Virus record (IMG/VR): IMGVR_UViG_3300037230_000083
Location: 1-47,685 of that record
From: a virus
Strand: one strand, 5' to 3'
Length of the DNA: 47,685 nt
Positions 39,267 to 43,634 of this stretch are shown piece after piece. Each line of letters begins with the position of its first letter. The stretch's first letter is position 1. The notes beneath the pieces were generated by a model. It did not search any database and had not been told where the DNA came from. It worked only from the letters and a program-made list of their open reading frames with translations. The translations under genes and the position numbers were made by a program.

Positions 39267-39581
39267 TTATTTGTCCCAGCGCGAGCGCGCGGCCTTCAAC
39301 GCAATTTCGCGGCGGCGTTCCGGTGTCATGGACGCCGCCCGATTCTTGCCTCCGATGCGACCGCCTTTTCTGCCGAGCTCGGCCATGACGCGCGAAATCT
39401 CGTCGCCCGTCGGCGGGCGATCCGAGTCGTCCTGCTGAGTCGAACGCCGGACCAAATCTTGAGCGACCTGGTTGAAGTCCATCCTCTTGGGCTTCGACCC
39501 ACTCACTGCTTTTTTCTTTGCGGCGGTTCCTGGTTTGTTAGGTCTTATCGGCAGCACTGGCATACTTCTGGATTTCGACAT
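39267..39581 (-). CDS. Basic protein with KGG/ARW-type motif, 104 aa
   Basis: Lys/Arg/Ser-rich N-terminal half; C-terminal half has ELGRKGGRIGGKNRAASMTP and ERRREIALKAARSRW, the TPERR...A..A...RW motif found in many small bacterial and phage proteins. Relatives here are 275-457 and 39993-40166. It begins at TAAATG with the stop of the previous leftward gene, the same junction used by the genes in the element at 41930-43626. Possibly DNA- or RNA-associated. Confidence 0.65.
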   Translation of the reverse strand: MSKSRSMPVLPIRPNKPGTAAKKKAVSGSKPKRMDFNQVAQDLVRRSTQQDDSDRPPTGDEISRVMAELGRKGGRIGGKNRAASMTPERRREIALKAARSRWDK

Positions 39582-39923
39582 TTAGCGATCTCCACCACGC
39601 ACCGTCGCAACCTTGAGAAGTCTAAGTACAAGAGCGTCCCATTGGCGGACGAACTCGCCGCGACCGTATACGTCTTCATAGTGTCCAGTGGTCACGCCAG
39701 CAGCTCGTGTCTTTCTACGACCCAGCTTGGGCAGATATTGAGACTGGGGCAATTCGTTGATCAACAGGCGCTCGCCGGTAAACGCTGCCGCTGCCTCTGC
39801 CTTCTCTATCCACGCTTCCAGAGCGACCAGTTCAGCCTTGATAGGATCGACAAACAGGCGCTCGGAGCCACCAGCGAACACGAAGTTTACGCCGGATTCG
39901 AATTTGTTGATGTTGGTATCCAT
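39582..39923 (-). CDS. Hypothetical protein behind element-type promoter, 113 aa
   Basis: Starts with MDTNINKFESG, while the first gene of the IS1595-type element starts with METNTATLEAN behind an almost identical promoter. The body (ELVALEAWIEKAEAAAAFTG, then GRGEFVRQWDALVLRLLKVA) is helical. No recognised family. Its start codon lies at the expected transcription start, so the mRNA is probably leaderless. Confidence 0.6.
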   Translation of the reverse strand: MDTNINKFESGVNFVFAGGSERLFVDPIKAELVALEAWIEKAEAAAAFTGERLLINELPQSQYLPKLGRRKTRAAGVTTGHYEDVYGRGEFVRQWDALVLRLLKVATVRGGDR

Positions 39924-39967
39924 ATCTCTATAGTAGATGACTACACGTCAGTCTGTCAAGAGAAAAA
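39924..39967 (-). promoter_or_regulatory. Leftward promoter sharing the element's operator
   Basis: On the minus strand: TTGACA (39959-39954), 18-bp spacer containing TGTAGTCAT, then TACTAT (39935-39930) and seven bases later the ATG. The inverse half-site ATGACTACA lies just upstream in 39968-39990. Nearly identical to the promoter at 41953-41995 (few substitutions and one extra base in the spacer). Confidence 0.75.
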
Positions 39968-39990
39968 ATGTAGTCATGTATATAATTCCC
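39968..39990 (-). repeat. Solitary copy of IS1595-type terminal repeat
   Basis: All 23 bases equal the terminal inverted repeat of the element at 41930-43626. Outside it, CTTCATTT (39991-39998) resembles the element's target duplication CTTTGATT. No second end was found to the left, so this is a solo end or relic. It starts two bases beyond the stop codon of the 57-residue gene 39993-40166. Confidence 0.85.
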
Positions 39991-41921: not shown

Positions 41922-41929
41922 CTTTGATT
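41922..41929 (+). repeat. Target-site duplication, left copy (CTTTGATT)
   Basis: The 8 bases CTTTGATT directly abut the left end GGGAATT of the element and recur directly beyond its right end at 43627-43634. Eight bases is the size produced by IS1595-family insertion. Confidence 0.9.
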
Positions 41930-41952
41930 GGGAATTATATACATGACTACAT

Positions 41953-41995
41953 TTTTCCTCTTGACAAACTCCGTGTAGTCATCTACTATAGAGAT
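41953..41995 (+). promoter_or_regulatory. Leaderless promoter with operator overlapping the element end
   Basis: TTGACA at 41961-41966 and TACTAT at 41984-41989 with an exact 17-bp spacer. TGTAGTCAT (41974-41982) lies in the spacer and its inverse ATGACTACA (41943-41951) lies in the left end, so an inverted pair flanks the -35. The first gene starts seven bases after the -10. A protein recognising the ends would be expected to repress this promoter, an arrangement known in transposons in general. Confidence 0.75.
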
Positions 41996-42181
41996 ATGGA
42001 AACCAACACAGCAACCCTCGAAGCAAACTTTAAGGCAGCCAAAGCTGCTTACGACAAAGCCGCTCTCGCCGAACGCCGCCATCAGGGGTCTCGCGCTGAA
42101 ACCGACTTTCGCGACAAACAGATGCATGTGGCTCTGAAGGTTTGGCGCGATGCGGTGGAAATGAGCGAGGTGAAGGCTTAA
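41996..42181 (+). CDS. Passenger gene 1, helical protein, 61 aa
   Basis: All-helical, Ala/Lys-rich (TNTATLEANFKAAKAAYDKA, then ALAERRHQGSRAETDFRDKQ). ATG at the predicted transcription start; the stop TAA is followed immediately by the next ATG (TAAATG). No family recognised. The same promoter, start and junction type occur at 39582-39990 with an unrelated body. Confidence 0.65.
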   Translation: METNTATLEANFKAAKAAYDKAALAERRHQGSRAETDFRDKQMHVALKVWRDAVEMSEVKA

Positions 42182-42439
42182 ATGACAAAGCAACGGTATC
42201 AAGAGATCAAAAGCCAAATGACCGCAGCCGCTGCCACATCTGGTCAAACCTCCGATTGGTTCGCGGACATTTTCGGCCCCATGGAAGCCGTCGAAGCCAG
42301 CCTTACGGAGCAAGAGCGCACGGAGTATACCCGATTGGCTTATGCGCATATGGCTCTCGACAACCCGGTAGGATACAACGGCATTTCCGAATCCGACAAA
42401 ATTGACGCCGTAAAACTGATCGCAGAGCAGGGCTGGTAA
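42182..42439 (+). CDS. Passenger gene 2, 85 aa
   Basis: Acidic, helical with many Thr/Gln/Glu (TKQRYQEIKSQMTAAAATSG, SDWFADIFGPMEAVEASLTE, AVKLIAEQGW). It directly abuts both neighbours through TAAATG junctions, so it is probably translated by termination-reinitiation. Unknown function. Confidence 0.65.
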   Translation: MTKQRYQEIKSQMTAAAATSGQTSDWFADIFGPMEAVEASLTEQERTEYTRLAYAHMALDNPVGYNGISESDKIDAVKLIAEQGW

Positions 42440-42721
42440 ATGGATCGGCAACAGAGGTTGGCGCAGTATAACAGCAATCAGCGGGTTGATCTGGTGCGGA
42501 AAGCGCACGAGGAACAGGGCTATGCAATCATCTCTTCTCTGGTGCCACGCCGCGTCGGAGAAGTCCTCAACGGACATCTTGGCAGTATCGAGAGGCTGGC
42601 TATGGCGGTCATCGGTGAGGCGACTTACGATGACTGGATTGCGCAGCGGAGACGATATTACAGCGGAGACGGCGAGGCCCAGAGCAAGGGCGTCTACTAC
42701 TACAAGGTCAAGGCCGAATAA
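42440..42721 (+). CDS. Passenger gene 3, 93 aa
   Basis: Charged helical protein (DRQQRLAQYNSNQRVDLVRK) with a beta-like centre (YAIISSLVPRRVGEVLNGHL) and an end rich in Tyr and Lys (SKGVYYYKVKAE). Abuts the transposase gene by TAAATG. Function unknown; passenger genes next to IS1595-family transposases are known in the family but are not usually these. Confidence 0.6.
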   Translation: MDRQQRLAQYNSNQRVDLVRKAHEEQGYAIISSLVPRRVGEVLNGHLGSIERLAMAVIGEATYDDWIAQRRRYYSGDGEAQSKGVYYYKVKAE

Positions 42722-43318
42722 ATGTCCAAATCCACAATCAGCACTTTTCAGCTTTTTGCGTTGTTTCCGGACGAAGAATCGGCCCGGATCTACCTGGAGT
42801 CGCGTATCTGGCCCGATGGCCCGGTCTGTCCGATGTGCCTGTTCGGTGAGCGAATCAGCATCCTGGGAAGCTGTGCGACCCGCAAGCATGGCTACTATCG
42901 CTGCCTCCGATGCGCGTTTGACTTCACGGTTCGTACTGGCACGGTCATGGAGCGATCCAAGATTCCTTTGCATAAATGGTTGTACAGCATGTACTTGCTT
43001 GTCACGGCACGTAAAGGAATTTCCTCTATGCAACTCGCTAAAGAGATCGGCATTACCCAAAAGTCTGCGTGGTTCGTCTTGGGTCGGCTGCGGGAAGCTT
43101 GCGGCGGCGATGGGCCGGATGGTGGATTGCAGAAGCTTCGCGGAACGGTGGAAATCGATGAAACCTTCGTTGGCGGCAAAGAGGGGAATAAACACGATCA
43201 TAAAAAGCTGAAGCAGGGGCGCGGATCGGTCGGCAAGGTCGCTGTGTTGGGGATGCGCGAACGTGGTCGCGGCGGAAGAACTTACGCGACGGTCGTACCT
43301 GAGACGCTGAAGGGTTGA
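42722..43318 (+). CDS. IS1595-family (ISXO2-like) transposase, truncated, 198 aa
   Basis: Residues 8-72 are the zinc-ribbon N-terminus (CPMCLFGERIS and CLRCAFDFTVRTGTVMERSK), then an HTH (LAKEIGITQKSAWFVLGRLR) and the start of the catalytic domain (GTVEIDETFVGGKEGNKH, with the first catalytic Asp in EIDET). The protein then ends ATVVPETLKG; family members continue about 100 more residues with the second Asp and the final Glu/His/Asn triad parts. These are absent here, also in other frames. So it probably binds DNA but cannot catalyse transfer alone. Confidence 0.8.
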   Translation: MSKSTISTFQLFALFPDEESARIYLESRIWPDGPVCPMCLFGERISILGSCATRKHGYYRCLRCAFDFTVRTGTVMERSKIPLHKWLYSMYLLVTARKGISSMQLAKEIGITQKSAWFVLGRLREACGGDGPDGGLQKLRGTVEIDETFVGGKEGNKHDHKKLKQGRGSVGKVAVLGMRERGRGGRTYATVVPETLKG

Positions 43319-43458
43319 AAGTTGCTCGACAGTTTGGCTGGAGCGGTCGCGATGAAAAGTGGCATCTGCTTCACAACGGAAAGGACTCCGGGCACGAATT
43401 CAACACCGCTAAAGAGGCAATCGAGCACGCTGAAGATGCGAGGATACATGGCCACTAA
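43315..43458 (+). CDS. Passenger gene 4, DUF2188-like protein, 47 aa
   Basis: A TTG start overlaps the transposase stop as TTGA. The protein reads KVARQFGWSGRDEKWHLLHN, GKDSGHEFNTAKEAIEHAED. The W-H-x-x-N-G...F-x-T-x-x-E-A-x-x-x-A pattern resembles DUF2188 small beta-alpha-beta proteins. It is coupled to the transposase, and might replace the lost catalytic end as a regulator. TTG start and size make it tentative. Confidence 0.45.
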   Translation: MKVARQFGWSGRDEKWHLLHNGKDSGHEFNTAKEAIEHAEDARIHGH

Positions 43459-43609
43459 AATTCCCCCAGAACTAGACTTGATCGCGGACGTGGTTCTGAA
43501 TTACCGACATGATCCAAAGTGTACGACGGCAAAACCGCTGAAGAAAAAGGCAAAAAGCCGACCAAAGAAGCGGAGTCTGCAAGCCTATGATTCTTCAAGG
43601 GGTATGTAG
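43448..43609 (+). CDS. Passenger gene 5, PPELD-type protein, 53 aa
   Basis: KIPPELDLIADVVLNYRHDP followed by a Lys-rich tail (KPLKKKAKSRPKKRS). A short PPxLDxIxDVVLxYxP protein with a basic tail is often found beside ISXO2-type transposases, to my recollection. AGGA lies before the ATG at 43448. The stop TAG is inside the right terminal repeat. Confidence 0.6.
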   Translation: MATKIPPELDLIADVVLNYRHDPKCTTAKPLKKKAKSRPKKRSLQAYDSSRGM

Positions 43610-43626
43610 TCATGTATATAATTCCC
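43604..43626 (-). repeat. Right terminal inverted repeat of the element
   Basis: Exact inverse of 41930-41952, ending TATAATTCCC at the right boundary. It contains one TGTAGTCAT half-site (43605-43613). Confidence 0.9.
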
Positions 43627-43634
43627 CTTTGATT
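43627..43634 (+). repeat. Target-site duplication, right copy (CTTTGATT)
   Basis: Identical to 41922-41929; follows directly after the inverted repeat. Confidence 0.9.

Follow-up and report, generated by a model that had tools for sequence, protein, structure and literature searches.

A decayed member of a phage-associated group of cargo-carrying IS1595 elements

The element and its setting

The window – the whole stretch of DNA analyzed here, a 47,685-bp IMG/VR virus record – contains a 1,697-bp block (41930-43626) bounded by inverted repeats that are complementary at 23 of 23 positions and bordered at both ends by the octamer CTTTGATT (Table 1). There are three copies of the terminal 23-mer in the window, compared with an expectation of zero from 100 shuffles. 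Phage genes in the window include those for a terminase, a major head protein, an integrase, and a sigma factor. For a 2054-aa phage protein (31957-38121) the only matches are weak ones to uncharacterized phage families, and part of it has 64-65% DNA identity to the phage of L006.

Table 1. Features of the element and of a second, decayed copy in the window
Feature	Coordinates	Strand	Details
Left target duplication	41922..41929	+	8 bp, CTTTGATT
Left terminal inverted repeat	41930..41952	+	GGGAATTATATACATGACTACAT
Putative promoter	41961..41989	+	TTGACA-N17-TACTAT, sigma70-like
Cargo gene 1	41996..42181	+	61 aa, no family match
Cargo gene 2	42182..42439	+	85 aa, no significant family match; TAAATG junction
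Cargo gene 3	42440..42721	+	93 aa, no significant family match; TAAATG junction
Truncated IS1595 transposase	42722..43318	+	198 aa
Replacement gene	43315..43458	+	47 aa, overlaps transposase stop (TTGA)
PPELD gene	43448..43609	+	53 aa, small basic protein
Right terminal inverted repeat	43604..43626	-	
Right target duplication	43627..43634	+	CTTTGATT
Second left end	39911..39990	-	inverted repeat, promoter, cargo start; flanked by CTTCATTT
Cargo gene of decayed copy	39582..39923	-	113 aa
Transposase gene start of decayed copy	39568..39581	-	first 14 nt (ATGTCGAAATCCAG), after TAA

A first-pass annotation, made from the sequence alone, had described perfect 23-bp inverted repeats and an 8-bp target duplication in a phage genome, with a promoter ahead of three TAAATG-linked genes, and all of this is borne out; the TAAATG junctions lie between cargo genes 1 and 2, cargo genes 2 and 3, and cargo gene 3 and the transposase. 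Its five passengers resolve into the three upstream cargo genes, the replacement gene, which has weak similarity to DUF2188 (E 0.015, below the cut-off), and the PPELD gene, which is the family's own. The latter is a standard gene, found in 50 of 66 elements including several with a broken transposase, and is therefore part of the backbone rather than a passenger. The cargo of the window copy has no known function; cargo gene 3 has no relative in viral contigs, and none of the cargo genes has one among the fetched loci.

A truncated transposase

The transposase of the window ends at 198 aa, compared with a full length of 318 aa. Its zinc ribbon matches PF12760 (33.4 bits, cut-off 25.4) and its DDE domain matches PF12762 (46.6 bits, cut-off 27) at profile positions 1-60 of 153 only, and with both matches above the curated cut-offs the earlier assignment to the IS1595 type holds. 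The window copy lacks the complete set of catalytic residues, and its family assignment rests on the full-length relatives, in which the D, D, N, and E residues (D146, D217, N250, and E253) are present in all 78 and K260 in 77. The window protein retains the zinc ribbon and the helical DNA-binding part, and its catalytic core is cut after the first D, such that D146 is retained and D217, N250, E253, and K260 are missing. The description of the element as 'complete' was thus wrong. Nor do the identical ends establish a recent insertion, since selection can preserve such ends and decay of the transposase has already set in.

The closest relative, L007, encodes a 318-aa transposase that is 96% identical over the common part; the two sequences are unrelated from about position 43307, and similarity returns at the PPELD gene. 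In the sequence as assembled, which may contain an error in the transposase, a short gene of unrelated sequence stands in place of the catalytic half.

Loss of the catalytic half with retention of both ends is seen in at least six other elements (L068, L079, L080, L082, L085, and L111), and a structure model of the window protein is fairly confident for the zinc ribbon and helices at approximately residues 10-125 and of poor confidence beyond. Both observations would fit a truncated transposase domesticated as a phage DNA-binding regulator, with the block kept for that function and not as a transposon remnant. We regard this as unlikely, since the points of truncation vary from element to element, as independent decay would give. 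With only D146 left of the catalytic residues, the block is instead read as a non-autonomous derivative, and on its gene content it is predicted to be unable to move itself.

Distribution and relationships of the family

With the window transposase as query, viral contigs yielded 96 relatives and a set of 84,980 species genomes yielded 26 at ≥61% identity, the two collections being unlike in size and habitat; an alignment query recovered 253 relatives in viral contigs. No transposase with >60% identity was found in 72,556 plasmids or in 50,697 cultured-phage records, and a blastn comparison of the element with these phage records gave no match. In a survey of one host phylum the clade was present in a single genome out of 297, which was the seed, and bacterial genomes rarely contain it.

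For 82 distinct elements both ends could be delimited; 68 of these are viral (including that of the window) and 14 are from bacterial MAGs. They range from 871 to 4,344 bp in length, with a median of about 1.84 kb, and 77 of the 82 have exact 8-bp duplications, which have a GC content of 19% compared with 59% in the flanks. The inverted ends of the relatives match at 12-16 of 16 positions. The proteins encoded beside the viral-contig members include matches to terminase, portal, and head proteins, none of which is among the listed flanking families of the MAG members.

A single stray transfer of an ordinary IS1595 insertion sequence from a host into a phage could also account for the window block, given that bacterial replicons often carry IS1595 transposases – more distant relatives (<60% identity) are present in 392 plasmid records – and that the clade has members in MAGs. 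The predominance of viral-contig relatives over those in species genomes and the near absence of the clade from the surveyed host phylum argue against this, as does the position of the window transposase in the tree, within a group of 25 drawn without exception from viral contigs (support 83, not starred), and we give the explanation little credence. Elsewhere in the tree, MAG and viral members are mixed. The block belongs to a large, apparently undescribed IS1595-type group that appears to live mainly in viruses of soil bacteria; a literature search on IS1595 or passenger-gene transposons in phages, with subscription papers largely outside its reach, returned no description.

A promoter in the left end and putative autoregulation

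The spacer of the window promoter carries TGTAGTCAT (41974-41982), which is an inverted copy of the inner motif of the end. Sigma70-like promoters are present in 53 of the 82 left ends and in none of the 82 right ends (shuffle mean 0.18), and the spacers of the relatives often hold the inverted inner motif of their own ends, with end and spacer pairs such as TGACTACA and TGTAGTCA, TGACTCCC and GGGAGTCA, and TGAGTACA and TGTACTCA. When each right-end motif is compared with the interior of its own left end, the match beats 20,000 of 20,000 label permutations, a result that is inflated by shared descent, and the covariation of operator and ends may in part reflect common descent. The covariation suggests autoregulation, and in the simplest reading the transposase would bind both the ends and the promoter, and repress its own operon.

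Mobility of the family

The 1,835-bp element of L037 (= L199) lies between two copies of TTTTATTT, and the near-identical phage L200, with flanks of 95% and 90% identity, lacks the element and contains a single uninterrupted TTTTATTT, as do L201 and L202. The uninterrupted site in near-identical phages shows that these elements transpose in phages. L021 and L029 hold the same element, 90% identical over 2.25 kb, at unrelated sites, with different duplications and flanks without homology.

The first-pass annotation had proposed looking for the ends at other sites with other duplications, and these were found at 82 distinct placements; its opposing expectation, that all relatives would carry the block at one site and that the ends would be absent elsewhere, is contradicted by these 82 different places. 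It had also proposed looking for the uninterrupted site in related phages, which succeeded for the relative L037/L199 and not for the window, because a search with three neighboring window proteins found no related phage with which to examine 41922. No element is present at the equivalent position in L006/L007, a distant relative that is too diverged to count.

A reading of the block as an operon native to the phage, with operator sites and not transposon ends as its flanking repeats, is very improbable and is refuted at the level of the family, for although the end sequence shares a motif with the promoter and three copies lie near phage genes, the family has distinct placements with nearly all different 8-bp duplications, an empty site in near-identical phages, and right ends with the repeat and no promoter.

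Cargo exchange on a conserved backbone

As annotated, the conserved backbone of the family consists of the left-end promoter, the transposase, and the PPELD protein, and the cargo varies. In a first set of 66 elements the extra DNA is upstream of the transposase in 31, downstream in 27, and on both sides in eight. Cargo swaps on backbones of 84-94% identity are seen in the pairs L055/L063, L051/L052, and L034/L040, and a swap is also seen in L029/L041; the cargo of L055 is a C5 cytosine methyltransferase and that of L063 an N4/N6 methyltransferase. The window and L007, with their 96% identical transposases, have no cargo in common.

Clear DNA methyltransferase, PAPS-reductase-like, or Lar cargo is carried by 13 of the 68 viral elements: DNA methyltransferases by six (L035, L036, L055, L063, L070, and L192), PAPS-reductase-like proteins by six (L016, L018, L028, L044, L053, and L169), and a Lar anti-restriction protein by L083. 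L031 and L051 have weak methyltransferase matches below the cut-off. Among cargo proteins of ≥150 aa, 12 of 26 fall into these classes, compared with no more than 6-10 of the 99 proteins in the flanks (Fisher p of about 5e-6 to 1e-4, from a rough hand count with the flanks estimated from a family table). DNA methyltransferases are common accessory genes of phages generally, so the enrichment alone is no proof of selection for anti-restriction. The cargo methyltransferases could shield virus DNA from host defenses, and from the annotations we infer a benefit of the cargo to the phage.

A recurring cargo class of approximately 240-290 aa, located downstream of the transposase in L097, L101, L107, and L108 (MAG) and in L017 and L039 (viral), has hydrophobic, membrane-like segments and no clear family, unlike the phage-type cargo.

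A second, decayed copy and composite elements

The third copy of the end sequence (39968-39990, minus strand), missed by the first-pass annotation, marks a second, decayed copy at 39990-39568 that consists of a left end, a promoter, one cargo gene, and 14 nt of a transposase start. Its first 80 bp (39990-39911, minus strand) are 94% identical to the left end of the window element, promoter and start codon included. No right end for this copy was found in the window at up to three mismatches. The ATGTCGAAATCCA that follows the TAA of the 113-aa gene is the start of the first transposase fragment of L007, and is fused in the window to an unrelated 104-aa ORF (39267-39581, minus strand). This ORF, which ends in GGKNRAASMTPERRREIALKAARSRWDK, apparently uses the start codon of the decayed copy's transposase gene, and the captured transposon promoter may thus drive a phage gene.

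In the composite L007 (4534-7126), a single outer pair of ends sharing the duplication CTTCTTTG encloses a second left end, which includes a promoter and lies 35 nt inside the first transposase start. Together, the arrangements of L007 and of the second window copy point to a nested insertion followed by loss of the remainder of one copy, and the L007 composite suggests that cargo can accrete via nested insertion. A 4.3-kb element in L049 (2727-7070) has two oppositely oriented transposase copies within one pair of ends and a duplication of TAAAAAAG.

Discussion

We consider it highly probable that the block at 41930-43626 is a non-autonomous, cargo-carrying IS1595-family transposon belonging to a mainly phage-living clade. 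The element would have entered an AT-rich 8-bp target through transposase-mediated insertion, and its left-end promoter would transcribe the cargo, the truncated transposase, and the PPELD gene as one operon. In the full-length relatives an active-looking transposase would move the element between phage genomes and occasionally into host chromosomes, and it probably acts, via the end-like operator within the promoter, as a repressor of its own operon, with cargo being swapped on the conserved backbone. Movement of the window copy would need a transposase supplied in trans from another element, and its remaining DNA-binding half may still bind the ends and the promoter.

The clade shares with ISXO2-like members of the IS1595 family the Zn_ribbon_IS1595 and DDE_Tnp_IS1595 domains, 8-bp AT-rich duplications, ends that start with GGG, and, in the full-length relatives, the invariant D, D, N, E, and K residues. 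It differs in having a median length of 1.8 kb, extra genes beside the transposase, a location apparently mostly in phages, ends of the form GGGAATTATATAC.TGACT.C, and an end-like operator in the left-end promoter; the window copy differs further in having no working transposase. ISApl4 likewise belongs to the IS1595 family, with perfect inverted repeats that start with GGGG and 8-bp AT-rich duplications, and is a 712-bp element of bacterial genomes with a single gene and no cargo within the IS (PMC12561309).

The clade also has a transposase and unrelated genes between IS ends in common with the 'transporter IS', the IS elements with passenger genes that the IS1595 family reportedly includes, and in the window three genes unrelated to transposition lie upstream of the transposase between the ends. 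Its cargo differs in being phage-type (DNA methyltransferase, PAPS reductase, Lar, and DUF551) and swapped on a constant backbone. Phage morons are similarly small accessory genes with their own promoter between phage genes, whereas the present unit has transposon ends and is moved by transposition.

The window block is a decayed member, and the interest lies in its group, a phage-associated variant of cargo-carrying IS1595 elements. We propose tentatively, and with somewhat less than even confidence, that this is an IS1595 lineage adapted to phages as its main habitat, forming a self-regulated shuttle of interchangeable counter-restriction and DNA-modification genes between phages. The usual view is that phages are purged of insertion sequences. 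A transposon group seen mainly in phages, with a demonstrated empty site and exchangeable methyltransferase and Lar cargo, offers a concrete possible route to anti-restriction genes, and is a testable case of transposition-driven gene exchange among phages.
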